From Calycina herbarum (lineage: Eukaryota; Ascomycota; Leotiomycetes; Helotiales; Pezizellaceae): a stretch of 64,000 bases of DNA. The stretch lies in NCBI GenBank assembly GCA_001414485.1, contig LLEY01000047.1, positions 186,001 to 250,000 on the forward strand, in the 5' to 3' direction. Position numbers and translations under genes: made by a program. This document shows positions 1,766-63,421 of the stretch, piece by piece. Position 1 is the first letter of the stretch; each line of letters opens with the position of its first letter. The notes beneath the pieces were generated by a model that was given only the letters and a program-made list of their open reading frames with translations, did no database searches and was not told where the DNA came from.

Positions 1766-2052
1766 CAAAATCCTCATCGAGATGTAATAAAAGAAATTCC
1801 CACATTATACTTTCAAATATTGTATCACAACGGTGAGTTTTCTTTCAGTCTCAAAGCATTGATCGAATAACTATACCAAACTATTCCAAGTTGTCAGCAA
1901 CTTGTTATTTTCATTTTTGATCTCATCCTTTCAACAATAAGGCGGTATGTCATCCCTAAACACGTCATGCTTACTTTCTCACTTGGCTCTCCAACCTACA
2001 TCCTATCATAAGTAGTCTCGTAGAGAAGTAAGATCTTACTCTCCACGTTCTA
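1766..2052. other. Intergenic, 3' flank of CTNNBL1 gene
   Basis: AT-rich 3' flank with no ORF of note. It ends at the TA dinucleotide (2051-2052) that forms the left target duplication of the MITE. Confidence 0.6.
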
Positions 2053-2575
2053 CAGTCAGTTGCGAGTTAAGCTTGAATTTGCCCACTTTTTTTGTAATCC
2101 GAGCTTTTTTTTATTAAGGCTTTCTCCCTCTTTTCTTTGGAAGACAGAAAATAAAAGTACTCTAAAAGAGACGAGGCCTAGCTAGAAAGAAGCGCTATAT
2201 CTAATTATCTCTCTTTTATATAATTTATTAATTTAAAGTAAGTATAATAAAAATAAACTAAAAGATAAATAATTCTTAAAATAACCCCTTTTCTTGAAAA
2301 AAATTTCACTACCCCTATAAGGTCGATAAGCTATGCTAAGACCGTATAAAAATCAAGATAGATATAAAATTGTCTGTTTTTGTCTTATAAAGTTTATAGA
2401 GTATAAGGGGAGATATAAGCCTCTTCTTTCCTGTTCTTATAAATAGTATATTATATGTTGTTGTTAATTAATAGGTAAAAGAGTGCCTAAAAAGGGGGGA
2501 AATTAAGGAATTTTCTCAAAATGCTTAGATTACAAAAAAAAGTAGGCAAATTCAAGCTTAACTCGCAACTCACTG
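2053..2575. mobile_element. MITE with about 52-bp terminal inverted repeats and TA target duplication
   Basis: The left end reads CAGTCAGTTGCGAGTTAAGC. The right end, reverse complemented, reads CAGTGAGTTGCGAGTTAAGC, and the match continues for about 52 bp with one indel. Both ends are flanked by TA (2051-2052 and 2576-2577). The 523-bp interior is very AT-rich and carries no transposase ORF. Length, TIRs and TA duplication fit a non-autonomous Tc1/mariner-pogo (Fot1-like) element. The arms differ mainly by C/T and G/A changes, which would fit repeat-induced point mutation. Superfamily assignment is inference from the TA duplication and CAGT ends. Confidence 0.85.
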
Positions 2576-4761
2576 TAATTAAAGCAATTGATCGCGTGAA
2601 CAACAAAATACTAACATCCTACCTCTTACCGATCTTACTTGCATAAACATACATTACTACCAGATCTTACTTACAGTACCAAGACGAGATAGGCATTTAC
2701 ATCCATCCCAATTCCGAGTGTGTCTTTCCGCTATCCGATAACCGTTGTCAATCATCGTGATATGACACTGGAAAGGCGTAGCCTTGTGGAAATAGATCTG
2801 AGATAGCTGGAGGGCGGAACGAGGAAGGCTGGTTCGGTGCGGGGTTGTACAATCAGATGTTTGTTGGTCATCTATTCTTGGTGTATGGAAAGAGCAAGGT
2901 TACATGCCGAATCTTGAGGGGTTCAATGGGGAGGCAGGTGGTTGAACGTGGCGGAGATACTTCTCCTAATGGACTGAGTGATGAACTGAATGAGTTGGAG
3001 AGGGTGTTGGAACTTAACAAGTTTTGGGGTCTGAAAAATGAGGCTGCGAAATAGGTCATTTTTAGAGAGAAGAATTGAGCAAGCTCAAAAGCTTAAAAGA
3101 TTTGAGATGATATGAGAACTTTACCCAGATATGGTAGTTTGTTAGGAATACCTTCACATTTCGTCTATTTGAATTTCTTATTAAAACAAGATGTGTAGTG
3201 CGAATAAGCTAACAAGGCAATTGTAGGCAACCGCGCTTGGAGAGGAAAATATGAATTTGGAAAAGGCGAACATAACAGGGGGATGTGTACTACCCAACAG
3301 ACCATGTGTAATTCGGTGGATAGCTCCCGAGCCTCGTCTTGAAGAGGAAGAAACGGGAGAGCTTTGAGCCGCCAACCCCACACTTGCTTTTGGTTACCGA
3401 ATACCGAGATTATTATTGGGAGGGAGGAATATGAAAGATGATGAAATTGAGTCCTTTAAATTTGAAGGTGTTAAATTTGATGAGAATTTTAATTGGAGGA
3501 TCAACTGTTCTCTCTCCAACACCACATAATCGAACAAGTCTTGACAGTGACATATAACTCGCATATACGGTGAATCCACTTCATCACCCACCCATTCACC
3601 TAACCCCAGATTGAGAAACTCGGTATAGTTCGGCAAGCATGTGAGTTACACCCCGATTCCCCAATTATCTGGGAAATCTCAACACACCCGCTCTCCTCTC
3701 GTACATGGCATGGGATTGAAGTACAACACACCACTTGGTACTCACCCCGCTCCTTCCATCCCCCCATTCCCAAATCTAAGCAATATAAAAAAAGATCTAG
3801 AATTACGACCTCCCACCTTCCCACATCCACGGCTCCAAGGAACCACTCGCAATAACGCACTCGTAACAACTCATACTTCCTCGGTACAAACACTCCATGC
3901 GCGATGAATCCCACACACACACACCATAACCCCAGCAGCTCTAAGAAGCCGGGCGTACCTGCAACACCTGCATATGCAGTACTACCCCACCCACACCCAT
4001 CCACCCAATACGCGAATACAGACTGACCACAAGGCAGATTTCCATCTCTACTTATTTTCGTGGCGTGCTCTCAAGTACTTCGATGCGGGGTTACGTGACC
4101 ATTCGGTGTAGCCACCACACTAGACTTCACATATGCTATATATTTTGGGGGCTAATAGCAACCAGCCTCCATGTTTCTCACCGAAATACAAGGCTTTCAA
4201 ATCGAATATATCGATTGGGATATATTGTTCCGAAGTCTATGCCCGCATCCACATCTTGACAAAACTTGTTTCATCCAATGCTTCTGGGGTTTTCAGCCCC
4301 CCCTCCACATTTGTGTAACAAGATATCTGTATGAGTTCTCAAGATAGAAAGTTTGTACCATAGGCTTTAGCTTTCGATCTCAAAGACTAGGATATTTCAA
4401 TTTTTCCGGGTCTTTTCAGCCCCCATTGTGTAACGAAATGTCTCCAAGAATTCCAAGGTAGTTGATAGCCTCGGATTTAAACACTTTATACAGGTGTATG
4501 TATGTATTCCCTATCATGCAGGGAGCGGCCGCCGCAATCATATGAATAACCCCAACGAACCAATCGACCCAATCAAGGAAGCCCTGAAATTTCAAATGCA
4601 AGTAAGAACCAAAGCAGAAACAAACGATCCCACCCACGTTCTCAAGGACGAAAGAAAAACAACAAGAAAAACCAAATGCAAAAAAACACACGATACCACC
4701 CCCCGTTTTCAAAAACCAACAAAGGAAAAATCCGAAAGGCCAATAGACGGAACGTATGTAC
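2576..4761. other. Intergenic region without a supported gene
   Basis: About 2.2 kb between the MITE and the F-box gene. Open frames at 2845-3054 and 3600-4004 have no recognisable domain and overlap on both strands. A pair of related stretches (around 4290-4330 and 4405-4445, both with TTTTCAGCCCCC and GTGTAAC) looks like an old local duplication. Nothing else was seen. Confidence 0.5.
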
Positions 4762-9894: not shown

Positions 9895-11666
9895 ATGGCA
9901 CTGATGGAACGTCTCAAGAACTTCCTCTCTGGGAAACGAGTAGATACCACCTCCTCGCCGCCATATCTCCTCGCAATTCGAAGTTCCAACTGGTTTATAA
10001 TATCCACCATCTGCACGGCTGTGTTCACCGATCTCTTCTTGTATGGAATCATCGTACCCGTCATACCTTTCGCCCTGGAGGGAAGAGCTCACGTAGCGCA
10101 AAAAGATGTTCAAAAATGGGTCTCAGTTCTTTTGGCCGTGTACGGAGGGGCCCTCCTCATTGGCAGCCCTCTCGCAGGATGGTTTGCGGATCGTTCTACC
10201 AGCAGACGCCTTCCCCTCCTGCTCGGTCTCTTTGCATTAGGAGGTTCAACGGTCATGCTTTGCTTGGCCAAGACGGTTGTACTCTTCGTCATGGGACGGA
10301 TTCTACAAGGTTTTGCAGCCGCTGTGGTATGGACAGTTGGCATCGCGTTGCTGGTAGATACGGTGGGACAAAACTCTATCGGAGAAGTGCTAGGCTGGGT
10401 GAGCTTGAGTATGGCTGTCGCCGTATTGCTGGCACCATTACTGGGTGGAATCGTGTACGAGCGAGCAGGGTACTATCCGGTGTACTATATCGCATTCGCC
10501 TTCATCGCACTCGATATCTTTCTCCGACTTGCTCTGATTGAGAAGAGAATAGCTCAGCAATGGATACAACCAGGAGTCTCGGAAGCACCATCAACGATGG
10601 ATGAGGCAACAGATTCTACACAAGAAAAGGACTCTGCGCTACCGGACAATAGCCAAATACCGGTCATCAACAACTCCAGCCCTGATCTCACAACCCAGCC
10701 AGTTCCACTCAGTCAAAGGTTATCCCCGGTCTTCACTTTGCTGGCTTCTCGTCGGATCTTGGCAGCTCTGTGGGGCTGCATCGTACAAGGATCACTCCTG
10801 ACTGCATTCGATAGCGTTATCCCGCTTTTCGTGCAGAAGACTTTTGGTGTAAGTGCAACTTCAATTTCACTTATCTTAGTCAACTCTTCCCGACACTTTC
10901 AGCCTCAACCACGTCAACTTCAATGCTTCAACTAAATAGCTCTACGCACGACCATGTTTCTCAGCTTTGCCAACACACACTAACGATCACACAGTGGAAC
11001 TCAACAGGCGCAGGAGTTATCTTCCTAGCTATCACCATACCCTCCTTCGCAAGCCCCTACGTTGGCTACCTAGCCGACAACTACGGGCCCCGCTGGCTTG
11101 CCGTCACAGGATTCATCTTCGCCATTCCCTTCTGGGTTCTCCTCCGTCTAGTAACACACAACACCCTTGGTCAAAAAGTCCTTCTCTGTGCTCTCCTGGC
11201 TTTCATCGGTCTTGGTCTCTGTCTCGTCATGCCCCCGTTAATGGCGGAAATCACTTACGTGGTTGAAGCCAAAGAAAAAGAGAAACCGGGTTGCTTTGGT
11301 CCTACTGGTGCTTATGCACAAGCTTATGGGCTTTTCATTGCTGCTTTTGCGGCGGGGTCTTTGATAGGGCCTGTGTGGGCGGGGTATGTGTCATTTTTTT
11401 TGGATTGGAGAACGATGTGTTGGTCCTTAGCACTCTTTTCGTTTTTCGGAGCTGTGCCTTGTCTGTTATGGACGGGTGGAAATTTGGGGGCGAAGAATGC
11501 GAAGACGGGTGAGGAGAGAGCGATTGGGAGACCAACTTCTTCGTCTGCTGATGAAGAAGCGGCTATCGAATCAACTCCACAAGTTCAAGCTCGTGAGGAC
11601 GAGACAACTGCAATGAAGACGCTACCCAAAGACCAGGCGGCTGAAAAAGACAAGAACGAGGGGTGA
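9895..11666 (+). CDS. MFS transporter, DHA1/vesicular-amine-transporter-like, 541 aa
   Basis: Exons 9895-10848 and 10995-11666; the 146-bp intron has a GTAAGT donor, a CTAACGAT branch site and a CACACAG acceptor, phase 0. The first half (six membrane segments) carries the loop 2-3 motif GWFADRSTSRRLPLLLG, and the motif-C-like stretch LAPLLGGIVYERAGYYP. The second half begins WNSTGAGVIFLAITIPSFAS and repeats the six-helix pattern with GYLADNYGPRW. Between the halves is a hydrophilic, Ser/Thr-rich loop (residues about 225-275). A long acidic cytosolic tail follows. Family knowledge suggests proton-coupled antiport of a small organic molecule at the plasma or vacuolar membrane. The substrate is unknown, and nothing nearby links it to a metabolite cluster. 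Confidence 0.88.
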
Positions 11667-12667: not shown

Positions 12668-14459
12668 CTAATGTTGACTCCACTCAATGCTATCAAGAGC
12701 AATCCCCTCTTGCACCAACTCCCAGAGGGGACTCAATTCCCGCAAGAACGACACTCTTTCTGTCACAGCCTTCAAGACGTAGTCAATTTCTGACTCGGTG
12801 GTGAAGCGACCGATACCAAATCGGATACTGCTGTGAGCGCTCTCGTCACTGCTTCCGAGGGCTCGAAGAACGTAACTAGGTTCCAAGGAGGCGGAGGTAC
12901 ATGCACTGCCGGAGGACAAGGCGATATCTTTTAATGCCATCAATAGAGATTCGCCCTCGACGTATGCGAAGGAGACGTTGACACATCCTGGGTAGAAGTG
13001 CTGCGAATCTCCGTTTTGGGTAGTGTGCTCAAGGGATAGGAGACCCTTGAGTAATCTATCGGAGAGCTTCTTGATTCGCTTGGAATCGTACTAGAATGGC
13101 GTTAGCTCAATCCAATGTAAACATCAAGATAGTTTTGGAGAGTGAGTGAAATCAGACAGGGTACTGTTCTCGTCAAGGAAACCTCGACCTGCAAGCAAGG
13201 AGATACACTTGGAAAGCCATGCATATGTAATGTAAATCATCATATTCAAAAGAGGGGTAGAAAATATTGGGGTGGCACTTACGTCGAGTTCCTCCTTGGC
13301 AATCCGGCATGCTTCACCAAAACCAACGACCAATGCAGGTGCAAGAGTCCCACTTCTCAGTCCTCTCTCTTGTCCACCACCACTGATAATTGGGTCAAGT
13401 CTGACACGAGGCCGTCTTCGGACGTAACAGGCACCGATTCCTTTTGGTCCATATATTTTGTGTGATGAGATGGATGCCAGATCAATATTCATCTTGTTGA
13501 CATCCATAGGAATCTTTCCGACGGCCTGGGCAGCATCGGTATGGAAAAAGACCTTCTTCGACCTGCAGAGTTTTCCTATCTCTTCCAACGGTTGAATAAC
13601 ACCGATCTCGTTGTTGACCGACATGATACTGACCAAAGCAGTTTCGGGTCTGATGGCAGCTTCAAGCTCCTTCATATCAATCAAGCCAGAGTTTTGGACC
13701 GGAAGGTAGGTAACTTGGAAGCCTTCATCTTGTAAATGTCGACAACTATCCAAAACACACTTGTGTTCCGTTTGTGTGGTGATGATGTGGTTTTTTCTTC
13801 CGCCACTGCGACCGAAAAATCTTGCGACTCCCTTCACACTCATATTATTACTTTCGGTGGCACCGCTTGTGAAGATGATTTCCTTTGGATCAGCTCCAAT
13901 CAGACTCGCAATGTGCTCGCGAGCATCCTCGATTCCCTTGTCGGTCTCCCATCCATATGCGTGTGTTCTTGAATGGGGGTTTCCATAAAGCCCACTATAA
14001 TATGGCAACATGGCATCGAGCACCCTTGGGTCTAGAGGAGTCGTAGCTTGCATGTCGAGGTAGATAGGCCGCTGTCCTTCGTCCATTATGGTTGCTTGTT
14101 TGAGTACACCTTTATTTTTTGTCAGCGTTCGCTCTATTCCGGAGATAAGATGGGTCCGTACCAGCCATAGGACTCATCATGGCATCTGCAGTTGTGCTGG
14201 TTCCAGGAACAATCTCGTCCTGTGGAAGTTTTCCCGTCTCTGCAAAGAACTTCTTTTGATCTGCCCGAATGGCAGTCTCCACGCTGACCTGCGCATTATC
14301 CTTCTTCGATTCGGAGACATATCCCCTCCTTGAGATGGTTTGGCCAGAAATGGCGGCGACCCGATGTGTAGAAGCTCGTAGCAAGCCCGCCTTGGAGGTT
14401 GCCGGCTTCAGGCAAAGGCGCGAGGCCTGCCGTAATGAATTCGCAGCTATGTTGGGCAT
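12668..14459 (-). CDS. NFS1: Cysteine desulfurase, mitochondrial (NFS1/IscS type), 515 aa
   Basis: Exons 14459-14162, 14109-13283 and 13090-12668, with introns of 52 bp (GTACGG donor) and 192 bp (GTAAGT...CTAG). The ATG at 14459 opens [20 protein letters not shown], an Arg-rich presequence expected to target the mitochondrial matrix. The PLP enzyme follows. It includes the SGATESNN loop, FFHTDAAQ with the cofactor-contacting Asp291, [10 protein letters not shown] with the Schiff-base Lys317, and SSGSACTS with catalytic Cys439 on the mobile loop. It ends in the conserved [11 protein letters not shown] tail. The enzyme takes sulfur from cysteine as a persulfide and passes it to the Isu scaffold with Isd11 and frataxin for Fe-S assembly, and it also supplies tRNA thiolation. 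Length is close to yeast Nfs1 (497 aa). A CCAATCA box on the minus strand (14589-14595) sits about 130 bp upstream. Confidence 0.97.
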
Positions 14460-15309: not shown

Positions 15310-16714
15310 ATGTCTTTCAAAGGCTTCCAGAAGTCCATCGTCAGAGGTAAGAGTCTTGGGAATCTTCTGGTGTGAGCCCTCATGGCACATGGGCTGATAC
15401 AAGAACAGCGCCGCAAACGTTCAAGGCAAAATTCAGTATTGGCGAACATACGAAAGATGCCGTCTACATCGACGCAGAACGGCGGTTCCAGGAGTTAGAA
15501 ACCGAAACGAAGAAGCTACACGACGAGAGCAAGAAGTACTTCGACGCCATTAATGGTATGCTTTCCCACCAAATCGAATTCTCCCAAGCAATCGCCGAGA
15601 TCTACAAACCCATTTCCGGTCGTGTGTCGGATCCGGATTCTATAGTCCAGGAAGGAAATCCAGAGGGCATAAGGGCATGCGAAGAATATGAAGCGATCGT
15701 GAAGGACCTCCAGGAAACTCTGGCCCCCGAGTTGGAAATGATTGAGTCCAGAGTGATCCGACCTGCAGACGAGTTATTGGAGGTCATCAAAGTGATAAGA
15801 AAGACGGCCTTGAAACGACAACACAAGCAGTTGGATTACGATAGGCATCGTGCAAATCTGAAAAAGTACCAGGACAAGAAAGACAAGAATTTAAAAGACG
15901 AAAAGGCCATGTACAAAGCGGAGAATGATGTGGAACAAGCAACCCAAGAATTCAACTACTATAACGACCTCCTAAAGGACGAGTTACCGAAGCTGTTTTC
16001 CTTGGAACGCGAGTTTATCCGCCCATTATTCCAGTCTTTCTACTATATGCAACTGAACGTATTCTATACCCTGCACGAGAAGATGCAAGGCTGCGATATT
16101 GGATACTTCAACCTGACATTGGATGTCGAAGAAGCCTTCGAGGCTAAACGGGGAACCATTCAAGAAGCGGCGGAAGCCTTGTCAATTGTCAAATTCAAAA
16201 CCACTGGTGGAAGGCCTCGTCCTGGATCTAAACCCCTCGCTCTCGGCCCAGCAAGTAGCAGGCTTGCAATCGAAGGAAAAAAGACACCCACTTCTCCCAC
16301 ATCATCATCCGCTCTTACCCGACGACAAGAACTGGAATCTTCCGAGACTCCACCCCCACCATATTCCAATAACTTATCACCCACGACTCCCACGGATACA
16401 AAGTGGGGTGCAGCAGCAAAAGCAAAAGGAGCCGCGCCACCACCTCCCAAGCCCAAGCCATCAAGACTGAGTGGTGCGCCCGCTGCAGAAACGGCAACGG
16501 CGCTCTATGATTACGAAGCACAGGCTGAGGGAGATCTGAGTTTTACAACTGGGGATGTAATTGAAATTGTCACCAGAACGAGCAATGAGAATGAATGGTG
16601 GATAGGAAAGATTAAAGGAAAGCAGGGCCAGTTTCCAGGTATGCAACCCCCTCCTTTAATTCAGTTAAGGAAACGGACTAACAAATTTAAGGAAATTATG
16701 TCAAAATGAACTAA
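15310..16714 (+). CDS. BAR-SH3 endocytic protein, Rvs167/Hob1 type, 429 aa
   Basis: Three exons: 15310-15346, 15409-16638 and 16692-16714 (introns 62 and 53 bp; CTGAT and CTAAC branch sites). The tiny first exon encodes MSFKGFQKSIVR and the last adds only NYVKMN, completing the SH3 fold. Residues about 14-250 are an amphipathic coiled-coil BAR domain (FSIGEHTKDAVYIDAERRF at its start). Residues 250-370 are a Pro-rich linker with PPPPKPKPS. Residues about 375-428 are the SH3 domain (ALYDYEAQAEGDLSFTTGD, NEWWIGKIKGKQGQFPGNYV). Yeast Rvs167 dimerises with Rvs161, tubulates membrane at the neck of endocytic pits, and binds Pro-rich actin regulators through SH3. Both domains are intact. The Ala/Pro linker is shorter than the GPA region of yeast Rvs167. 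Confidence 0.95.
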
Positions 16715-17569: not shown

Positions 17570-18442
17570 TTAAATGTAATACTTCCATTCACTCCCATGC
17601 TTCCACGAGTTGAAGCTAAGCTTAAACTCGAAACCCTGCTCGCCCTTGGTGGGCTGGCTGATATCAACAAGCGAAATAGTCGTATCCTCCATCCACAAGT
17701 GATTCCCTGGCGTATACCACTTCACCTTCTTGTTTTTTCCCTCGGTCCAGTCTTTTTTCTTCCAAAAGTCGTAGATTTCCCCTAGTCGTTCATGGCCTTG
17801 GTATCTGACAACGCTCACAATCTTTTCTTCCGGATGATCCATTCCCAATTGCACTTCCTCGAAATGCAAGAGATTGTCATAGAAGTTGTGGGCGAAAGGG
17901 ACGGGAGGTTGAACTACTAACATTTTGCGCCAACTAGCTTCCTGTCTTGAAAAAGCCTCGATCCAATGCAGCTTCGAGAGTTGGATGTCAAAACTCCGCG
18001 TGTGATTGGCATCATAATCTAAGACGAAAGGTTCCTGGAATTTGGACTGATACTCGGCAAGCTTGTGGGTAAGGAGTCCGCAGACAGAATACATTGGTTT
18101 TCCATCTTGGAAGTGTTGTTTCTCCTTTGGCATCGGTCGGAAGTGTAGGTTTTGTTGGAGGGAAGGTGATTCTGAGATTGTTTCATTCCAGAACTTGGAG
18201 ACTCTGAGGCAGTTGAGCAAGAGCTCGCGTGTTGGTATGTAGAGGAGGATATTTTGGAGGAGCTCGGCGATTTGAAGGACCTTTTTGGTGGCGGGAGAGT
18301 CAGGATTCCAGTTTGCTTGGGATAGTTCCTGGGAGCGAGCTAGGTCACGGAGTATGGCTCGGGAGTTTTCGAGGGCATCGAGTCTTGTATGTATGGCTTC
18401 TTGGTCGCATCCTTCAGGAGCTTTAAATGTATTGTCGTCCAT
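17570..18442 (-). CDS. F-box-like protein, about 290 aa
   Basis: Single exon. The frame is open to an ATG at 18568 (332 aa). The ATG at 18442 (MDDNTFKAPEGCDQEAIHTR) is preferred because the extra 42 residues look non-conserved. A helical segment is followed by an F-box-like motif (AELLQNILLYIPTRELLLN, then LRVSKFWNETISESPSLQQ) and LHFRPMPK. The C-terminal half is a beta-rich region ending in SFNSWKHGSEWKYYI. This layout matches a large fungal group that pairs a divergent F-box with an uncharacterised C-terminal domain. Skp1 binding is expected from family knowledge, but the target is unknown. Copy number of this family is high and variable between related fungi. Confidence 0.8.
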   Translation of the reverse strand: MDDNTFKAPEGCDQEAIHTRLDALENSRAILRDLARSQELSQANWNPDSPATKKVLQIAELLQNILLYIPTRELLLNCLRVSKFWNETISESPSLQQNLHFRPMPKEKQHFQDGKPMYSVCGLLTHKLAEYQSKFQEPFVLDYDANHTRSFDIQLSKLHWIEAFSRQEASWRKMLVVQPPVPFAHNFYDNLLHFEEVQLGMDHPEEKIVSVVRYQGHERLGEIYDFWKKKDWTEGKNKKVKWYTPGNHLWMEDTTISLVDISQPTKGEQGFEFKLSFNSWKHGSEWKYYI

Positions 18443-19225
18443 GCTGAACTGTAGTTGGACTATCGTCCTTTCTTCTTGCGGTGTTGTTTGTTTGATGGAT
18501 GTGTCAAGTTGGCACGTTGAAGACTTAATACGAAAAGAGTGACGCACTAACAGGCCAAACATTGGCATTCACACATTCACTGATGGACTGATATCTTGTC
18601 TTATTCAGAGAAAGGGGCTTAGCGAACTTTGAGGCCCTGCAACCACCAATATGTAATGATCCAAAACTCACAATAATGTATGTTTTCTCCAGGCATATTC
18701 TTATTTACCTATTGCCATATTCCTTCTTTGAAGAGCTACCACAACTGTTGGGCTGCTGACCTTATGGGTTGTTCTTGACTAAGTTACAAACAGCTCTCCA
18801 GATGCACGACTTTCCAGTGTTTGGCAGCTTGAATACCATGAACCATCTCGAGTAGGCCTGAGCTCTCTTTCCAGATTATTGAATATTGATGGATGGCTTG
18901 GTGGGAAAAGCTAGGGTGCAGTGAGTGATTCCATAAAATTTAAAACTTTGCTGATTATTCAAACTGAACTTAGTGGGAGAAGGTAACATGGAAGGGGAAC
19001 TTTATAGATCCAAGCAAGGAACAAGATACTTTAGTATTCCCCAACCTTCTGCCCTAGTAAGGAACAAGACCCGTGGAAGGGTGAAATATCTTCTATATGG
19101 CTCCCTTCAATCAAACGTACAAGATATTCCTAGTAAATTCTACGGAACACGTTCTACATTCTCAAGTCTATAGACTCACAATTTAATCCCTCAAGTAACC
19201 CCCAAAATCTCATTTTCCCACTATA
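18443..19225. other. Intergenic region
   Basis: About 780 bp between two minus-strand genes. It contains the F-box gene's promoter side and the 3' flank of the acetyltransferase. No supported ORF or repeat was seen. Confidence 0.4.
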
Positions 19226-25016: not shown

Positions 25017-25434
25017 TGTTGTTATTTACTTTGGGGGCTGCAGGCAATTGTTCAATGTTTCTAAAGCCGAGGAAACATAAACTTAATTGTTCTACTCTTG
25101 GTCATTTAAGATTCTTGCATTGACTCAAGTCAGTATCGTGGAAGGAGCGAGTTGAGACACCACATCCAACTCGCTCCTTCCACAACATACCTACTGACTT
25201 GAAGTAAGACAAAGGAGCTTGCAAGGCTGCTCCTTCCTTTAATAAATCTTTGATCGCTGCCGTCATTTTCTTGCTTCAAGTCGAGCATGCTACTTCAATA
25301 TTGACACCATCCACCTCCACCACACTCGTTTATCGCATTCATCACTTTCTTTATCACTTTACTCCTGCGCTCGACAGAAAACATCTGCGGCGTCAATATC
25401 ATTCCCTACTTCCCTACTCCAACGTCTATGTTTG
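25017..25434. other. Intergenic region with a long hairpin
   Basis: Short space between two plus-strand genes. It includes the 25125-25202 inverted repeat, and the 5' flank of the large MFS gene. Confidence 0.6.
25125..25202. repeat. Perfect-stem hairpin between two genes
   Basis: Outer arms TCAAGTCAGTA (25125-25135) and TACTGACTTGA (25192-25202) are exact inverted copies. Inner arms GTGGAAGGAGCGAGTTG (25138-25154) and CAACTCGCTCCTTCCAC (25167-25183) pair over 17 bp around a 12-base loop. The two stems are separated by small asymmetric bulges. It could be a 3' UTR structure of the upstream gene, a small-RNA precursor, or a miniature foldback element. Confidence 0.75.
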
Positions 25435-28400
25435 ATGACCCAACCATTAGAGGGGTCATTCAATGCCCCTCGTTCTCGTCAACCCGGTTCGGCCGTCAAT
25501 AATACCAGCATGAGCACTCCAAGCCATCGCCGAGTCGACGAAGATATTCTTACACGCATCCGTTCCCTATTACTCGCACGTAACGTCAGCAACCCCCCAC
25601 GAACTCCTTACCCATCTGACGAACAACCTGGAAACAATTTCTCCGAGGATGGTACCTCCTCACCGAATCGAAACTTCATCAACGCAAGTACAATGGAACG
25701 ATCAGCTCGACGAGAGAAAAGATTAAGTCTTCCAGAATCAATCGCAGAACTCAGTCGAAGCCCTAGCATGGTCATGCACGGTGCACTGGAATCGACGACC
25801 CCGGCTCCTGAGTTGTTTGTTTTCCCAGCTCCTAATTTACGCTCATCAAGCTCAGCACATGATTTAAGAACGACCTCCGATACCCCGGATGCATTCAACC
25901 TCACTGATGGGCCCTCATCCTTACCTGGCAAAAAGAAATCTCGTCTCAAGTTGGTTCTTCAGGACATACCAAAAGACAAAGAGTCGCAACTTGTATCATG
26001 CGTTGAGATCAGCGCAAAGATCCCCAAGAACGATGCTGCTATCCACGAAGATGAGTTGACTTGTTGTCCTCCTTGCGAACCACCCGAAGCACAGAACTCC
26101 AAATACATTATCAGTGATGGACAGTGGCCGAAGACAATTGAAGCAGAACCTTCTGATCTCGCATGCTTTCTTGCTGGATGCCCTCCGGGACAGCTTGAAT
26201 GTCAGAGGCATCCCAACCGACGAGCACAATCCACATCTCTTTTGGATCACAGATGCAGACCTCAAGATCTGGAAGCAATTGGACTCCCACTTTTTTCTGA
26301 TTTCGACAAGATAGTGGGTGACGCAAAGAGAGCTAGGATGAAGGTTACAACAACTACAGATGGCAACCACTCCACGCTGAAAAGCGTATCAGTATCAGCC
26401 GGCAGCGTTACCTCCAGTGACGCCTATCCACATGTTATGCAGTCACAAAAGATTGCATCGAGGAAAAGCATAAACCTACCTTTCTCAGCTGCTATCTTTA
26501 CAAATTTCAGTCTTCCCGGCCCCAAAACCAAGCGGCCTTCTGTTTCCCCAGGCCTGACTCGCAAAGAAACACAGATTGCTCCGGACGAGGAGGCACCATT
26601 CATGAAACCGGTCGAATTGCAACCGCTTGTCCTTCCAGAAATGCCACCACGCAAAGAAGCCAAGCCAGCTTTCCGTCCTAGCCCAGCTGTACGTCACAGG
26701 CAGTCTGATGGTTCCATGCGCTCAGGAAAATCGGGAAAGAGACATGTTTTGCTCAGGTCATCGGGTTCCGATGGAGATCCAATCGAGACCAGCCTCCCAG
26801 TTCCGCCAGTATTGTCAACCATCAGAAGTTTTGGATTAGAAACTGTAGAAGTCATTCCAGACCAGCAGGCCGAAGAGCCGAAAGAGCCCGTAGAGACACT
26901 GAGTCCAACCAAGAACGGGCCTGGTCCTTATCGGGATTTGAGTCCTGAAATCAACAGCACCATTCGAGATACTCAAAAAAGCCCAGTTGCAGGTCACTTG
27001 GCGAATTTGCAAAGAACCATAGATTTGGTTGATAACGTTCGTGAGCGGGTCCAGGACGTCAAACAGTATATTCCCGACGACGACGTCAACAAGAAGATTG
27101 ATCAATCCCTGAAGAAATGCCCTATATCACCTGGAATCAATCCTGTAGATGCGGCATACTGGGGCTTTGTTCCTTCTGTGAAAGACAAAGTTGAGGGTGC
27201 TGTTCAAACCGCAGTACGCAATGCGGTCAAAGAGGTTGTGGTACCCTCAGGCGCTCGAAGGAAGGAGGCATCGGAAGTATATCGTCTTTTGATGGCAGAC
27301 TCTTTAACCAATGCTGCGAAGAATGCGGATGATTTTCTGAAACGACCTTCGTTGTGGAATAGCATAGAATCTCCAGCTCCTTCGGGCACCAACTCTCCAC
27401 AAAAACCACAAAACACTCTCCAGCCAGACAGTGGGTTGGAAACCATCCCTCTAGACTTCGATCAGATCGTGTCACCAGAAAATCACAAGCAAGGATCAGT
27501 CAAGACGCCGAAAAAAGGACAAGTTGCTTCGAACAATGCCATTCCAGAAAGATTCTCTTCCAAGCATAAGGTTCTCGCTTCGAAGGTGGGAGCAACGAAC
27601 TCGTCTCAAAAACTGCCAGCCGTAGAAAAAGCCCTTGGTCCTCAAAAACGGTTGAACGAACAGCTGGCTCCAAAGAAGAATAAATATGTTCTTCGAGCGA
27701 CTTCTTCAGCCGAGTCGCTAAGGCCAATGGTCCCCGCAAAATTTCCATTTGACGACCGAAGTTCGGTTTCGAATATGCCACCTGGAAGGAAACTGGCTCG
27801 TAAAAACACGATTTATTGGCTCCGAGATCTGATTACTAGCAATGGACCGGGCCCATACGAACCCCAATTGACTGCTCTTCCACCGCGGACCAGAAGAGCT
27901 TACAACACTTCAGGAACACGAGGCAGATCGCAAACCGCACCTTCAAAACCTGGAGCTGAGCTATATTTGAATTCGAATCTTGGACCTAGAAAAACTGAAG
28001 AGGACTCCGCTGATCAAAACTCCGAGATTAATGTGGACAGAGCTCTCGTTCATGATCGCTTCGCTAGGACGATAGACGATCTCGAACAACTTCTCGGAGA
28101 AGCATTGATGGTTGCTCAGCAAGCAGCAGATAAAAATGACCCTGGTTATATGCCAGCCATCTTAGGAGATGCAAATCGAATCCTGAAGGATAGCCGAAAG
28201 GGTTTGTCAGAGAGCGCCGCATATTACCAACGAAGACAAATCATGCGTTCCAGGCGTACCGGTACATATTCTGATGAACTCTCTAGCATTGCTAGTATCC
28301 ACGAAAGTTTGAGGAGTTACGGGGACTCGACTGAGTTCAGCGACGACGACAGATTTCATCAGAATGCCCCATATGCATACCATGATACCCGGGACAGAAA

Positions 28401-31400
28401 TATTGAAATCCCTCCCAAGAATCCCCAACGTAAGCAACCAAAGGGGCGCGTTCATACCCCATACCAGGCCAGAACCCGAGCTCCATCTCGAGACTCAGAT
28501 ACAGCAAATGCTCCTCTTATGCAAAATACAATTAGGGACTTGGAGTGTATCAAGGCTGCTGATCCTAGATCAATGCCGGCAGAAATAGATTTCGCTAAGC
28601 CCCCAAGAAAGTACACAGAACCCCCCGATGATTCTAGTCCCCCTGAAGCACTCGGAGAACTAATCGGATCTGGTCCTCCTCCAAACTTTTATAATCCGGA
28701 TCCTTTCAAGGCGCCAACGAGTTCCGGTACTGGACGCAAAATTTCTGACAACTCTCCTCGGCGCCTCAGCCCTGTGAAACAGACAGTGCCAATTATCATC
28801 ACCGATGATCGAGGTAAAATGCCCGTTCCTCGTGGAGACAGTGTTACCCAAAGATGTGCTAGCGGAGGACACTCGGAAGATGAGCACAATGCCGTCAAGG
28901 CAAAGCTTATGGCGAAAGGTGTACCAGGAAAGCGTGAGGTACGTGAATACATTGAGAGTAACCAACGTCCACCAATCCACACTCGAGATAGCTCCAAGGC
29001 GTTGAGAGAACAAGCTGAACAAGTCGCGCAGGATGATGAGGAGAATTTCAAAATGAAACGAGGCAAGACCTATGACTGGCAAGATGTCGATCCCGATTAT
29101 GCTGAGCGATGTACGCTTGACGATGTGAAAGCTGGCTCTGTAGCAAAGCCTTTGTCTACTAATGGTCCTTCTGTTCCTTGCAGTTCCAGTACCGGTGGTG
29201 GTTCCGACTCAAGTGGTGCACTGGACTTTGGTGTTGGATATGTTCATGCAGGCCAATCTCCTGGAAACCAACGGGGCGGAAACCCACGATATACCGAGAA
29301 TCAGGGAAACTATACGCAAGAGCCAGACAATCGAAGATATGATTCAAGACTCGCGAATGGTAATGAAGACTATCCCGACAGAGGTGCAAATGAAAATCGA
29401 GGATATGATTCTGGGAATCCCAATGGAAATGGAGGTGGGAATGGCAATGGAAGGGGCGGTGGAAATGACAATGGAAGGGGCGGTGGAAATGACGGCGGAG
29501 GCTACAATGGTAAAGACTACAGAGATGGAGATGATCCTTCGAGGGATCCAAACGGCGGCGGTGGAGGATACGATCTCAGAGACGATCCACCCCCGAATCT
29601 ACCACAAACACAGAAACCACGACGTCGGAAGCACAAGAATAATGAAGAATATGATCTCTCGAGAAAGAACCATCTCAGTTTAAAGGAGGATCAACACAAG
29701 GGTTTCAGTTTTGCTCGATCCCATAAGAAACCGGCCATTGCTAGAGATTGGAAGCCAGCACGAAAGAGATTCGCTGCAACTGTTGCCTGTGTCAGTACAG
29801 CTCTTGTGGGGATCCTTGTGGGTATCTACGCTGGAGAAGTACCGGCTATTCAATATTACATTGTTGACTTTCACCATTATACGTTGCTCGGAAATGTCTT
29901 CTTCTACCTCGGTCTGGCCATTCCGACATTCTTCTTTTGGCCGTTGCCTCTTCTTCACGGACGGAAACCATACATTCTTGGTGCTATGGCGCTTGCTATG
30001 CCACTGCTCTTCCCGCAGGCTGTTGCGGTTGGGTCTATTAGATCTCCATACGTCAGATATTGGAGGATTGGTCTCATTCTTCCGCGAGCTCTGATGGGGT
30101 TCTGTCTCGGCTTTGCAAACATGAACTTCAAGTCAACTCTCACTGATCTATTTGGTGCCTCGCTGCAATGCGAAAACCCACATCAAGAAGTTGTTGATGA
30201 GAATGATGTTCGGCGCCATGGTGGAGGTATGGGTATTTGGTTGGGCTTGTGGACATGGTGCGCCATGGGATCAATTGGCGTTGGCTTCATGATTGGAGCC
30301 ATGATCATCAACCACCTCCCTCCTGCCTGGGGATTTTATACTAGCATTTTCATTATTGCTGGGGTTTTGTTCCTCAACATCATTACGCCCGAAGTCAGAC
30401 GTTCTGCATTCAGAAGATCCGTTGCTGAAGTCAAGAATGGCGATACTGTATCTCGTCGACTTGCTCGTGGAGAAGTTAAAATGCATATGGTACAGAGTGG
30501 TCCCAAATGGTGGGGTGAAGAAATGCATTATGGATACATGCTATCGCTGCGTATGCTTACACAGCCTGGCTTCATGGTGATAGCTGTTTATGTTGCTTGG
30601 ATGTATGCCCAGATTGTGTTGATTATTGTGGTTTGTCTTCCGCATTTGAGGAGAGCGGGATTTTGCTAATAGTTTACAGCTCCTTGGGTCCTTGACATCC
30701 AAGTACTACAAGTTCACTTCGCCATTTGTAGGATTGAGCGTGATGTCGGTACCTCTTGGAGCCATGGTGGCCATCCCGTTCCAACACGCATCACTCTTCA
30801 GTCGTTCCCATAACAAAGGACCGGACGAGGATGATACGGTCAAAAAGAAGATGAATTGGTCTTCTCACATGCTGCGACGTGCAATTTTCGTTCTGGTGCT
30901 TCCGTTCGCTGGTCTGGGATATACACTTTCTTCTACTGGCCCACCTTTCCATTACCTAGTGCCTATCTTGTTTGCGGCACTTATCGGTTTCCTCTCAAAC
31001 CTTGCTTTAGCAGAATGCCATGGTATTTTGATGGAAACTTTCGACACCTCAGATCTTCAACCTGGTATGGCTGGTCGAGCTCGTGGCTCTTCGGGCGATA
31101 AAGCCAAGGGTAAAAGAACCAATTACTCTTCCTTCCCACGAGTACAATCTGCATTCGCCATCACTCAAGCTCTTGGATACTGCTTCGCAGCCATTGCAGT
31201 AGGCGTAGGCGGCTCCGCTGAACGACAATTGGGTCAACAATCTGCCACAGGAGTCATGGCCGGTATTCTCCTCATCCTCTCCATCCTACTCCTCGGTGTC
31301 CTCGTTCGATTCAAGGATGTACAAATTATTCCTGATTCTAAAAAGGGCGAGCTATCGCAGTGGAAGAACGCGCGGAGAACTTCGGCGTTTATGCGTGCTC

Positions 31401-51553: not shown

Positions 51554-52566
51554 AGTTTGGGGAAGACAAGTACAATATTGATGTGTGCGAGTGGTCTAGC
51601 CAGATATAAGAGCGAAGCTTGTGGCTAACTTTTGCTGATTTTCATGTAAAGCTCTCCATTAAAAGAAACAGAATTGCAGAGTTTATGACACTTGGTAGCT
51701 AAGGGCCTGTTTGGCACGCATATAATTTATTATAGATATATGAGATTTGTGCACGAGTACAGGGTGAAAAGGTGCTCGCATATATCTAGGTTTTTCTCTT
51801 ATATATATTCTGTGTCTGTTTGGCTCAAAGAAAGTTTGGTGCATATTTCACTAGTTCCGGTGATTATAGTAGGCTCAGCAGTAGTTGTAGGTGAGGAAGT
51901 AGGAGAGTATGTGCATGCACATAAAAGTTGAAGGTATAGAGGTCAAAAGATTATATTATGGAATCTTGGTGGTGCACATCTTGATGCATATATTATAAGG
52001 AAGTGCGAGCAAAAGTGCGTACTATAATATATGCTAGCCAAACGTTGGTGCACAACATGATGTGCATGCATATATTATATATTACCCCATTATTTTTGGT
52101 GGTGCATATCTTAAAAAAGTACTAATATGTGCGAGCCAAACAGGCCCTAAATTAAAACCAGACACATTCAATCTAAAGAAATAAAGCACTAATTGCATTC
52201 CGAGAATAACACGTATCACTAGGGGGTGTTAGTATACGTGGCGGTTATAGGGTTTTGATATCTATTATACGAACTATTTAGAAGAATCGCAAAGTCTAAA
52301 TACTGATTATTCGAAACTGCCTCGCACAATCTCCTATGTTGTACGAAGTGTTTTAGAACAATCAGTGATTTTTCCAGATCTCTAGTACACTGACCCCAAA
52401 ACTCCCAGTGTCGCTTATCTCAGATGATATCTTAGTGTTAATGTCGTCACCACAGTCAACTCTTAGCTCCACGCACACTAGCTGTGAGTTCCTCCAACTC
52501 ATATATCTTGGAGTAAGTCCAATTTTAATACCTTTCAATTTCCGACCCATTCTATTTTCAGAAAAT
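51554..52566. other. Intergenic region with a MITE and a probable 5' UTR intron
   Basis: Besides the MITE at 51703-52147, a GTAAGT...TTTTCAG pair (52513-52561) just upstream of the 2EXR start looks like a 49-bp leader intron. Confidence 0.55.
51703..52147. mobile_element. Tourist/Harbinger-like MITE, 445 bp
   Basis: The left end reads GGGCCTGTTTGGCACGCATA. The right end, reverse complemented, reads GGGCCTGTTTGGCTCGCACA. The ends are identical over 13 bp and similar for about 25 bp. Both are flanked by TAA (51700-51702 and 52148-52150), the TWA duplication typical of PIF/Harbinger elements. The interior is AT-rich with repeated GCATATATTATA and inner copies of CTGTTTGGCTC, and encodes no transposase. 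The ORF at 51692-51931 lies across it and is not a gene. Confidence 0.85.
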
Positions 52567-53604
52567 ATGTTTTCGGTGAAACAACCACACCTGCTTTTCG
52601 ACCAGAAGGGTTCCTTCAGACGCTTTCCACACCTCCCTGCTGAAATCCGCAATCAAATTTGGAAGATTTCTGTTCAGTTGTACCCAGCACGAATAGTCGA
52701 CCTACGAGAATACCGTCTATCAGCACCTGGAATCTTATCGCCTACTAAAGCTATTGCTCCAGAATCCTCCACAGCATCCAGGCCGAATGATGTACAAGAC
52801 AAAAACGAAGAGAAAGATGTCGAAGAAATCGTAGGCTTCAAATCACGAGCCCTTCCTCCAAATCTTCTCTATATATGCCGCGATTCAAGGAACTTCACCA
52901 AGGAGTCATACACCAAAGCTTTCGGTACCGTAGATGTGCCCGCGGAAACCTGGATTAATTTCAAGAAGGACATGTTGTACCTCACGTGGGACTTTTGCAG
53001 AATAGCACTAGAAGGCTTCGTAGTACATAGTCTTGTTGTCCACCCCACCGGGCAGACAGTCCCACACGGATGCTTTTTCAAAGAGCTAAAACAGGATATT
53101 AAACAAGTGACGGACCTTGCAATTGGGGGATTGTGGAATTCTGGCTTTGTGAGCGAGGATCTCTTTAGCATTCGCCACTCATTAGATGAGCTTCCCTTCA
53201 CTTTTGGGGATCAATTAGAGAGGATAATGTTGGTGGATGCTCAACATGCGCCAGGTTTAACCAGCGACTTGGTATTTACTGGTGATTTTCCGGAGTTTTC
53301 GTACGAAGCCGCAAACCCGAAGTACGAGAAAAGTTTTTTGGAATTTAGAGACTTTTTATTTGAGGCTCTGCATTCATCTAATTTGGGGGATTGGTGGTGG
53401 GGTCTGCAACCGTATCCGTGGGTCGAATTTGGAACTCTTGTAGAAAGGCAACTGGGGTGCACTACCTCTAGTATTCCACCGCGAAGAACTGACAGTCGAT
53501 GTGCGACGAAGGAAATTCGCGAAAGGGCAATTCCAGAACCGGAAATACGCATATGGCTTTGGGGTGACAAGCATGGTCCTCCACCTGCTTCAGAACTTGA
53601 GTAG
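52567..53604 (+). CDS. 2EXR domain protein, 345 aa
   Basis: Single coding exon. ATG 52567 (MFSVKQPHLLFDQKGSFRRF) is chosen because the upstream frame would read through a likely leader intron (52513-52561) whose removal shifts the frame. The 2EXR domain is at residues 15-50: FRRFPHLPAEIRNQIWKISV, then PARIVDLREY. Next come PPNLLYICRDSRNFTKESYT, typical of the family, and a beta-rich C-terminal half with DLAIGGLWNS. 2EXR proteins are an expanded family in Leotiomycetes and other Pezizomycotina with no established biochemical role. No signal peptide or membrane segment is visible. The domain is intact and the frame shows no damage. Confidence 0.85.
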   Translation: MFSVKQPHLLFDQKGSFRRFPHLPAEIRNQIWKISVQLYPARIVDLREYRLSAPGILSPTKAIAPESSTASRPNDVQDKNEEKDVEEIVGFKSRALPPNLLYICRDSRNFTKESYTKAFGTVDVPAETWINFKKDMLYLTWDFCRIALEGFVVHSLVVHPTGQTVPHGCFFKELKQDIKQVTDLAIGGLWNSGFVSEDLFSIRHSLDELPFTFGDQLERIMLVDAQHAPGLTSDLVFTGDFPEFSYEAANPKYEKSFLEFRDFLFEALHSSNLGDWWWGLQPYPWVEFGTLVERQLGCTTSSIPPRRTDSRCATKEIRERAIPEPEIRIWLWGDKHGPPPASELE

Positions 53605-58915: not shown

Positions 58916-59675
58916 ATGGCTAAGACCGGATTCTTCCACCATATCGGCACATTCTTGCTGTTTGCTGCCACAATCCTCCTCCTAATCACATCCATTTCAG
59001 CGCCTGTGATCAACAAAATCTCGATCTTGGAAGTCAACCTCGAGAATGGAACAGAAATCTCATTTGGTTCATGGGGCTACTGCTTCATTGGCTCGTAAGT
59101 CTCCATTCCACCCTCTGAACCAAACACTTTCAATTAACAACTTAAACAGAAATGCTGGAAAAGATTACTGCAGTGGAAAGCACATTGGCTACAACCCAGC
59201 CCTCTTGATGGAAGGAGTAGACAACACGGACTTCAATGGCGCGCAAATCAACACATCAAAAGCTCTTACACGCGTAATGGTCCTCCACCCAGTCGCCTGC
59301 GCTCTCGCATTCCTCGCCTTCCTCTTCGCCGCCGGTTCTGGATTTTGCGGAGCTATCTTTGGGGCTGTCACTGCCACCGTTGCTTGGATCGTCACACTTG
59401 TTGTTATGGCCACTGATTTCGTCTTATTTGGAATCATCAAGAACCATATCAACGATGATGATTCGGAAAGCAAGGCATCTTTCCACACCGGAATGTGGAC
59501 TCTCTTAGCAGCATTCGTCTGTCTATTTCTCGGAACACTCATCGTCTTCTTCACTTGTTGTTCCTCAAGAATGCACAGACAAAACCACGTCTCAACAAAG
59601 CATGAGACTGGATACGCACACGGTACACAAACACGAAAGAGACATTTCTGGCAACGCAGAACCACCAGATACTAG
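58916..59675 (+). CDS. SUR7/PalI-family plasma membrane protein, 234 aa
   Basis: Exons 58916-59094 and 59150-59675 with a 55-bp intron (GTAAGT...AACAG). The N-terminal membrane segment is FHHIGTFLLFAATILLLITS, followed by an extracellular loop with the claudin-like GSWGYC motif and Cys pairs. Then come three more membrane segments: VACALAFLAFLFAAGSGF, VTATVAWIVTLVVMATDFVL and WTLLAAFVCLFLGTLIVFF. A basic C-terminal tail follows. Four membrane spans with a GxWGYC-type loop define the SUR7/PalI group. Sur7-type proteins mark eisosomes, while PalI/Rim9 assists ambient-pH sensing. The sequence does not discriminate, but the short tail argues against a long-tailed classical PalI. Plasma membrane location is expected. 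Confidence 0.9.
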
Positions 59676-60810: not shown

Positions 60811-63421
60811 ATGGAGCCTTTGAGTAAGAAGCGGCGCCTTGCGCCTAAACTGGCTGAAAAACCACTGCATGAGCAGGTAAGGCCGACGATAATGAATGCC
60901 ATTAATATAGATTGAACAACTACTAACCGGTTCTATAGTCACCGCAGATGCGATACGACTACAAGGCTATGCCGCCAGTGCAAGATGCGGCCCCTCCTCC
61001 TGAACGGACCGACTTCGAGTCCTTTGCGCGACATCTGCAAGATGCAGCAATGCTCATTTATGCCCAAGCCAATCGCTCCCCATACACAAGCGCCTCTGTT
61101 CTTCTTCTCCGCTGGGAAGATGATATGAGTGTTGAACCAGATCTTGCGTCGTTGGAAAAGGCTTTCCGTGAAATCTTCAATTATAGAACCGAAACATGGA
61201 GCATTCCGAGTTGTCCTAACCCCAGTGTTAAACTCTCAATGCAGATGGCACAACATGTTGAATTTGCTCGCTCTGATCACCTCTTGATTGTCTACTATGC
61301 TGGCCATAGCTTTATCGGCTCTGATCACAATCTATACTGGGCATGGTATGATTACCGACACACAGCCTCGTTTAGATAAAGCTAATATGTAACAGCAACC
61401 CTCGTGAAGACTCCTCCAGATTGAAGTGGGAAGGTGTCAGATGCCTACTAGAAGACGCTCAATCTGATATCTTGCTTTTACTGGATACTTGTGCTGTTGC
61501 GGATGCGCCTACAGCCGGAAATCATGGCGTTAAACAAGTAATTGCCGCATACACCCCCGATCAAGCTGGACGGGATTCTGGTCCAGTATCCTTCACCTCA
61601 AATCTCGTTGAGAGTCTCAAGAGGCTTGGAAGTGGTCGTCCTTTCAGCATACAACGCCTACATGAAGAGATAATTGCCCAGAAGCACAACAACATTCTCA
61701 TTCACCAGTCCCCTCAAACCAATGGCTCCGGCAAGGCTACATCCGCCCACGAGCGAATGCCAGTATGTTTCTCATTAACGCCTGGGTCGCTTCAAAGTAT
61801 CACCCTCTCCCCAATTGGCATGCAGCAAGGTCTAGCCGGAGGGCCGATAATCTCACCAATGGGTTCCCCAGAAAATGATCTGCAATTAGGGCAAAACAAT
61901 CTCGGTAGCCAGCATGGGATCAAGGTTAATTCAAACTCGGATCTCACTTTCGAAGAAATGAGAGCTCTAGTTTGCACAACTTTCCTGGGAGAGCCAAGTC
62001 AGGACATGGCTTCCTTCAAACAATGGCTACACAACACTCCAATGGCAGCTTCAAAAATAGCTGTTGAGGGTATGTTTCATGGCCCACCTACCGTTTTACT
62101 TGTTTCGATGCCTATCGCAGTCTGGAACGTTGTTGCTGCTGATCGGACTTGTGCTTTTCTCGGGTATGTAAACTCACACAACATGTCAACCGAATACCAG
62201 CACCTTGTTGGCGGGATTTCACCTATTGGAAAAGCAGCAACCTTCAAAGAGCTTGAGGACGGCAAAATTCTTCTCGAGGCCCGTGAAGCAGCTTCCTCAA
62301 CACCAGTCATGTTACGGCACGATATGATGCATCAAGAATCCGTCAGACCGATGGGTACTCCGAGTACAGTGAACCAAACTATTTACCCGGAACCTAGTTC
62401 CTCTTCAGCTATTGCGGAACCAAAAGAAAATGTCGAGGATTCAGTTGAGATGCACGAGGCAGCAGAACAGCTTAAGGCCCTCAGTCACGTCCGCCATGTC
62501 AGTCACGATAACCTTGCTAATGACCGAAATCATTCTCACATACCTTCAGAGGACTCACCTGGCCTGAGAAGCGCTCGTGAGGAATCTGCCTCTTCTCAGG
62601 AACAAGGAGATTCCGGTGCCGAAGAACCATTGTACAATTCAGAATACAACTCCCCAGCCTCAGCCTCACGGCCGAAACCACGAAGATCCATACAAAAGCA
62701 AGGCCCCAAGCAAGACACTCGATGCACACTGTGTAGCCATGCACCTTTCAAAGACTCCTCTTCCTTACGAAAGCACATCGCCGCCGCCCACACAAGACCG
62801 TTCCCTTGCGCCTTTTCCTTTGCAGGTTGCACAAGTACATTTGGCTCCAAAAACGAATGGAAGCGACATATTGCCTCTCAACATCTTTGCTTAACCTATT
62901 ATCGATGTTCATCCTGCCCCCAGAGCTCAGTAGAAGGAAAGGGTAATGAGTTCAATCGAAAAGATCTGTTCACTCAACATCTCCGAAGAATGCATGCCCC
63001 ATTTGCTATTAAGAAAGCCATTGTGAAAGGCGAAAGCAAGCTACAACAAGAATGGGAGTCGCATGTCAAGGAAATGCAAGCATCATGTCTGGTCATTCGA
63101 CGTCAACCACCCCAACGTTCTGCTTGCCCCAAACCTGATTGTGCGAACGTGTTCGAGGGCGCAGGTAGCTGGGATGACTGGACCGAACACGTTGGCCGAC
63201 ATATGGAGAAGGGAGAGGCTGGTCGATTAGGCGTGGACAGGCTACTCGCACGTTGGGCTCTTGAGCAAAATATCATTGAACGAAAAGAAGACGGCGAATA
63301 TAGACTCATCGGCACTGAACGGGAAGGAAATGCTGGCGGTTATTATTCCGACGGCAATGGTGTGACCAAAAAGGAGATGGATGAGAAGGGTGACAACGAG
63401 GGTATGATTCTTGATGCATAA
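60811..63421 (+). CDS. Caspase-like domain fused to C2H2 zinc fingers, 832 aa
   Basis: Exons 60811-60876, 60939-61345 and 61396-63421; introns 62 and 50 bp, both with branch sites (CTAAC, CTAAT). It starts MEPLSKKRRLAPKLAEKPLH, a basic stretch that may be a nuclear localisation signal. Residues about 45-290 form a caspase/clan CD-like domain. Strand HLLIVYYAGHS ends in His145 and strand QSDILLLLDTCAVAD carries Cys190, the expected His-Cys dyad, with LYWACNPRED and LKWEGVRCLLEDA between them. A middle region of about 300 residues is mostly disordered. From residue 601 four C2H2-type fingers follow: CTLC...HIAAAH, CAFSFAGC...HIASQH, CSSC...HLRRMH and CPKPDC...HVGRH. The pairing suggests a stress- or incompatibility-linked regulator, perhaps with autoproteolysis. 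That is inference; activity and DNA binding are untested. No NACHT or NB-ARC domain is present. Confidence 0.85.

Follow-up and report, generated by a model that had tools for sequence, protein, structure and literature searches.

What does a protein do that carries a caspase-like domain near one end and an array of C2H2 zinc fingers near the other? The question is raised by a predicted gene at 60811..63421 on the plus strand of the window, a stretch of 64,000 nucleotides from Calycina herbarum that corresponds to positions 186001-250000 of contig LLEY01000047.1 (C322 of the 68.8-Mb genome G000). The initial annotation suggested a transcription factor with built-in proteolysis, and named a pseudoenzyme as an alternative. 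Comparison with orthologues favors the alternative and argues against proteolysis as a family trait, as 59 of the 134 sequences with a residue at position 145, the putative catalytic His, carry something other than His. The reading favored here, with moderate confidence, is that of a nuclear regulator of filamentous ascomycetes in which a pseudo-caspase module controls the C2H2 array.

Splicing at 60876|60939 and 61345|61396 yields a single frame of 832 amino acids, terminated by a TAA stop at 63419-63421, which reproduces the residue numbering of the initial annotation together with its two short introns, His145 and Cys190. Exon 1 (60811..60876, residues 1-22) contains the basic tract KKRR (60826-60837, residues 6-9), which resembles a nuclear localisation signal. 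Exon 2 (60939..61345) encodes the first half of the caspase-like domain, including His145 (CAT, 61305-61307), and exon 3 (61396..63421) encodes the remainder of this domain, including Cys190 (TGT, 61490-61492), followed by the middle domain, linkers, four fingers, tail and stop. Predicted intron 1 (60877..60938, 62 nucleotides, GTAAGG...CTATAG) has GT...AG borders, and predicted intron 2 (61346..61395, 50 nucleotides, GTATGA...TAACAG) coincides by eye in position and phase with the second intron of a paralogue on contig C57. Seven donor/acceptor pairs would preserve the frame at intron 2, three of them GT...AG, and the pair used was chosen by the agreement of the resulting protein (YWACNPREDSS) with orthologues.

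The caspase-like domain spans approximately residues 45-300. The predicted structure has caspase topology, as the layout proposed from the sequence implied, and places His and Cys each at the end of its own strand, as in the peptidase C14 fold. PF00656 is absent among the seven Pfam families returned for the window protein, and matches six of 21 orthologues at E <= 0.1 (best E 4.5e-5). A Protein Data Bank sequence search with residues 1-304 gave no match at E <= 10, and a search with a profile of 60 orthologues gave a single match, a finger protein (E 0.0072).

Variation at the catalytic pair was followed in 135 sequences, comprising the window protein and 134 proteins of at least 740 amino acids drawn from 187, with 53 shorter ones excluded beforehand and a few rows lacking the N-terminus. 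At the His145 column there are 75 His, 53 Tyr, two Phe, one each of Asn, Cys, Val and Gln, and one gap, while the Cys190 column holds 121 Cys, 11 Gly, two Tyr and one gap. His and Cys occur together in 66 of the 135, thus the dyad is not conserved among orthologues, and Tyr and Gly occur together in five (P0108, P0118, P0171, P0180 and P0183). Given these five, the statement drawn from a 60-sequence set that His and Cys are never both missing was dropped. Conservation of the pair had been proposed as a check on activity; one or the other residue is missing from many orthologues, which speaks against activity as a family trait, and the pair is not lost from all of them. The AGHS and DTC motifs, previously read as signs of a pseudoenzyme, do not bear that weight: among 60 orthologues, the residue following the His145 position is mostly Gly (47) or Ser (11), the one preceding Cys190 is mostly Thr (45) or Ser (11), and Gly144, next to the His145 position, is invariant (60 of 60). 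Judged from the alignment, the telling substitutions are His to Tyr, reachable from the window's CAT codon by a single C-to-T step, and Cys to Gly or Tyr.

These substitutions are recurrent. On a FastTree tree of the 135 rows, built with both columns removed, the His column changes between His and not-His at least 22 times and the Cys column between Cys and not-Cys at least four times (at least 13 and at least four on 60 rows). Even close species differ, with Tyr in Verticillium albo-atrum (P0098) and His in V. dahliae (P0116). The counts, from trees without a tested root, are silent on gain versus loss; comparison with the sister family described below suggests that the direction is loss of catalytic residues. 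Because the two columns vary repeatedly, the catalytic pair escapes the constraint seen on the fingers and middle domain, and an active protease was rejected as the conserved function of the family.

Constraint differs strongly by region. Across the 135 sequences, the mean share of the commonest residue falls from 0.94 (fingers 1-3) through 0.91 (finger 4), 0.85 (residues 499-527), 0.83 (middle domain) and 0.70 (caspase-like domain) to 0.38-0.40 (linkers). The middle domain (61937..62206, residues 339-428), which also occurs in the caspase-like superfamily, has a predicted beta-alpha-beta-beta-alpha-beta order and is ferredoxin-like. The linkers between this N-terminal module and the fingers are long and of low confidence in the structure model; among them lies the short conserved stretch EDSVEMHEAAEQLKALSHVRH (62435..62497, residues 505-525), with a helix at 508-520 in the model. 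A basic leader (at least four Lys or Arg per five residues, within residues 1-16) is present in 122 of the 135 rows, in agreement with the Lys/Arg-rich leader noted previously, and nine of the 12 printed exceptions have at most one residue in that region. This basic tract is the feature that points to a nuclear location.

The four C2H2 fingers of the initial annotation are upheld, with all 16 zinc ligands each conserved in at least 133 of the 135 sequences, and their extent is corrected, as the array runs past residue 730 to residue 760. Finger 1 (62723..62791) has ligands C601, C604, H618 and H623; finger 2 (62807..62884) has C629, C636, H649 and H654; finger 3 (62906..62995), with a long loop, has C662, C665, H686 and H691; and the atypical finger 4 (63125..63202) has C735, C740, H756 and H760. 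The best sequence matches among solved structures are the fingers of CTCF (E 1.4e-4) and YY1. Near-invariance of the fingers across the listed genera suggests one fixed target, which from sequence resemblance would be DNA. A conserved C-terminal tail follows (63218..63307, residues 766-795), which is also matched by a finger-only paralogue on contig C370 (L008 373-2229, plus strand). This paralogue matches P0001 residues 586-809, covering fingers and tail, at 48%, and has no caspase-like match and no Pfam match at E <= 0.01.

In total, 501 proteins match the window protein at E <= 1e-3, far above chance, and the closest, P0001 from Hymenoscyphus fraxineus, is 95% identical over its full length. 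Orthologues also include PODANS_2_70 of Podospora anserina (P0125) and P0148 of Neurospora intermedia. Protein lists here comprise the best 120 of 501, 525 and 194 matches. Going by genus names, which we take to indicate class, the family occurs in two fungal classes; this breadth is a lower bound, as orthologue sampling did not extend to Eurotiomycetes or Dothideomycetes. As none of the best 120 of the 501 matches carries a precomputed Pfam domain, the family is readily overlooked by ordinary domain surveys, and one database record, P0069 (Colletotrichum), is already labelled with a caspase domain and C2H2.

The module itself extends beyond this family. Profile-profile alignment (hhalign) joins the window family to the family of the C57 paralogue over 366 columns and both domains (probability 100, E 1.2e-56), and a search with the caspase-like and middle part of C57 found 194 proteins, of which the best 120 were examined. 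By precomputed Pfam labels, the partners in these 120 are a homeodomain in 31 (30 with rhodanese), C2 in 21, rhodanese without homeodomain in six, a YDR124W-like helical domain in five, DUF3295 in three, C2H2, Myb and Zn2Cys6 in two each (one Zn2Cys6 case with an HMG box), and Clr5 and PF25438 in one each, with 46 bearing no partner label or caspase-type labels only. The earlier view, by which caspase-like domains of fungi are mostly solitary or part of NOD-like receptor (NLR)-like proteins, is thus too narrow. A DNA-binding domain is present in 38 of the 120, and a Pfam rescan of ten representatives rechecked eight of these fusions and upheld all eight. In each of the eight, the DNA-binding domain lies C-terminal of the module, as does the C2H2 array of the window protein. 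The His-Cys pair is found in 112 of the 120; of the eight that the alignment shows without it, P0190 carries Pro at the His position, and P0193-P0196, P0198, P0216 and P0239 are gapped or misaligned fragments. The His call for P0296 is probably misaligned.

The homeodomain-rhodanese and Myb (P0244/P0252) fusions are firm cases. Homeodomain examples such as P0264, P0266 and P0269 are Sordariomycetes proteins with intact His-Cys, and the two Myb proteins align with each other over almost their entire length; P0260, of the same Myb clade, stops within the Myb-like stretch and has no Myb match. The single C2H2, Zn2Cys6 and HMG fusions are unproven. P0207 (1298 amino acids; HMG box, Zn2Cys6 and Fungal_trans) possibly represents two merged genes, and P0198 has the module without its first part. 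The fingers of P0250 fall outside the region over which it aligns with its relative P0291. For P0291 the Myb matches are below the cut-off only, as is the bZIP match of P0199. In P0237, a C2H2 relative with a provisional gene model, the second finger block matches the window fingers (28%, E 2.7e-10), suggesting that this finger type may have joined the module more than once; P0218, 72% identical to P0237, is without a finger, both by Pfam and in its tail sequence. On an unrooted module tree of 83 rows, the window family forms one clade with full support in the Shimodaira-Hasegawa-like approximate likelihood ratio test (SH-aLRT), adjoined by the long row P0261, which is possibly misplaced. Partner labels change nine times on this tree (unlabelled rows excluded). 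Because nine classes require at least eight changes on any tree, this count shows that partners track clades, without proving that shuffling was frequent.

Within G000 there is no second close copy of the gene, and the next matches are C370 and caspase-like genes, mostly of 26-32% identity. At least 13 other superfamily sites are found, on C1, C21, C57, C67, C96, C315, C334, C338, C351 (two) and C342 (three). GHG or GHS together with DCC motifs are visible by eye in C1, C57 (GGHG ... LLDCC, the catalytic pair being kept), C338, both C351 copies, two C342 copies and the second C67 copy. Three of the superfamily sites have further unusual arrangements. On C67 (L025, reverse complement 983-3410), tandem caspase-like modules comprise a degenerate first (GGNA, LDTS) and an intact second (GGHG, LDCC). 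On C96 (L022 1588-4860, plus strand), the second half of a caspase-like domain and the middle domain, with a catalytic pair that appears degenerate, continue in frame into a putative oxidoreductase, presumably of GMC/FAD type. On C1 (L027 1037-2375, plus strand), an intact-looking caspase-like domain precedes a frame which we take to be kinase-like.

In the favored reading, the caspase-fold and ferredoxin-like module would be an ex-protease retained as a receptor or as an interaction surface without catalysis, which would govern the activity of the fingers across the disordered linkers, and the C2H2 array with its tail would bind a single constant target, most probably DNA. Where a caspase fold with a drifting active site stands ahead of constant fingers, a role in binding or in pairing is suggested, by analogy with FLIP(L) and the pseudo-orthocaspases, and we infer that the module signals without catalysis. 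Several observations weigh against this reading. The window protein itself carries both His145 and Cys190, as do 66 rows overall, and retention of Cys190 in 121 of 135 may be above expectation for a wholly dispensable residue. Among the 38 relatives labelled with DNA-binding domains, 37 keep His-Cys and look active. Pfam C2H2 models fall short of their cut-offs (15.5/27 and 11.7/25.2 bits), and the predicted local distance difference test (pLDDT) scores of the finger region are low (block means 32-63), so that DNA binding is putative. Proteolysis is possible in species that keep both residues, C. herbarum included.

The retained dyad, the active-looking relatives and the long linkers that separate module from fingers are the evidence for a self-processing transcription factor, in which an active protease would cut its own linker or a chromatin neighbor and thereby release or switch the fingers. 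This is judged unlikely, however, as the His column changes state even between close Verticillium species while fingers and middle domain are conserved, and the linkers are the least conserved regions, with no conserved cleavage site evident. A special form of the favored reading holds that the pseudo-caspase pairs with active caspase-like paralogues and steers them, with the fingers recruiting the pair to chromatin. FLIP(L) provides a precedent in the available text (PMC7586951), and several superfamily sites in G000 have the motifs expected of partners; such pairing is purely putative, though, and superfamily members are mostly as distant as stated above (at most 44% identical, over 43 residues), making this form a minority possibility. 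Alternatively, the fingers could target RNA or protein and the protein would serve as a scaffold rather than a transcription factor. The unusual spacing in fingers 3 and 4, the presence of a five-residue linker only between fingers 1 and 2, and weak, below-cut-off Pfam matches to fingers of the TRAF (E 0.15) and Sina (E 0.14) types are in line with this idea, which is nonetheless quite improbable given the CTCF and YY1 matches and the DNA-binding domains that occupy the same place in other superfamily members. Finally, two genes might have been merged by gene model or assembly. Such an artefact is extremely improbable: the second half of the caspase-like domain and the fingers share one open frame of 666 amino acids (61421-63421), making their link independent of the gene model, and the same architecture recurs in the 134 other long proteins.

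The module can also be set against known systems. No NACHT or NB-ARC domain was found in the Pfam scan of the window protein at E <= 10, as the initial annotation had it, and a fungal NLR (STAND) receptor was rejected on this ground. The N-terminal CASPase-like domain of Raptor/Kog1 serves as a scaffold. Raptor_N (PF14538) matches the window protein at E 0.097 and 12.9/27 bits, below the cut-off, with no further Raptor domain in the Pfam results, and this identity was likewise rejected. The likeness to peptidase C14 (caspases, metacaspases and paracaspases) lies in the fold and the placement of His and Cys, whereas identity is 8-16% in the rows compared and C2H2 fingers are attached; with PF00656 not reached and the dyad unconserved in orthologues, a plain metacaspase was rejected. 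Type I metacaspases may carry a zinc finger motif, according to the available text of PMC13304501, with no equivalence to the window fingers implied. The fungal caspase-like and ferredoxin-like family typified by C57 is homologous to the window protein over both domains, but mostly keeps His-Cys and has other C-terminal partners, and the window family is a separate clade. FLIP(L), a human pseudo-caspase, has the caspase fold without the His-Cys pair and with Tyr for Cys, the residue also seen there in two of the 135 window-family rows; unlike the window protein, it has death-effector domains and no zinc fingers, and works with caspase-8 (available text of PMC7586951). In bacterial pseudo-orthocaspases, Tyr replaces the catalytic His, as is common in the window family, and Ser or Asn replaces Cys in named variants, whereas Cys is mostly retained in the window family; the available text of PMC6426788 does not mention a finger array.

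Discussion of caspase folds in fungi centers on metacaspases or on the CHAT-type domains found in cell-death receptors. The caspase fold, the finger type and pseudo-caspases are known already. Apparently new is their combination in one conserved fungal family, along with the wider joining of the module to DNA-binding domains: in the open-access literature, no paper was found that describes a caspase-C2H2 or caspase-homeodomain protein from a fungus, or that treats homeobox, caspase and rhodanese together in fungi. The word 'caspase' does not occur in the main texts, as far as available, of PMC9815663, PMC2779367, PMC5415576 and PMC7142095, and PMC13208671 and PMC4243288, which contain caspase and C2H2 wording, are unrelated in their available content. 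In the available text of PMC12881547, the partners of CHAT caspase-like domains are repeats or domains of kinase-like type, and 'zinc finger' is unmentioned.

A module joined to fingers or other DNA-binding domains would tie the caspase fold to gene control, in which moulds may make use of it. Only tentatively, and as a rather doubtful proposition, filamentous ascomycetes may harbor a whole class of chromatin-targeted caspase-like proteins, in which one module is combined with DNA-binding domains of many kinds. Active-looking members would then act proteolytically, at chromatin or upon the DNA-binding half of the same protein, and the window family would be a deeply conserved pseudoenzyme regulator. 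The case for this class would be stronger if the fusions were confirmed by RNA-seq, and the His/Tyr variants among orthologues offer a natural test of pseudo-caspase function.

Elsewhere in the window, an open frame of 1745 amino acids (25432-30669, plus strand) has no Pfam match at E <= 0.001. The remaining Pfam-labelled frames, which offer no explanation for the caspase-finger protein, are those of CTNNBL (195-1661), a major facilitator superfamily (MFS) transporter (9895-10935), a class V aminotransferase (13124-14086), BAR-SH3 (15372-16709), F-box (17570-18568), 2EXR (52408-53604) and SUR7 (59046-59675).
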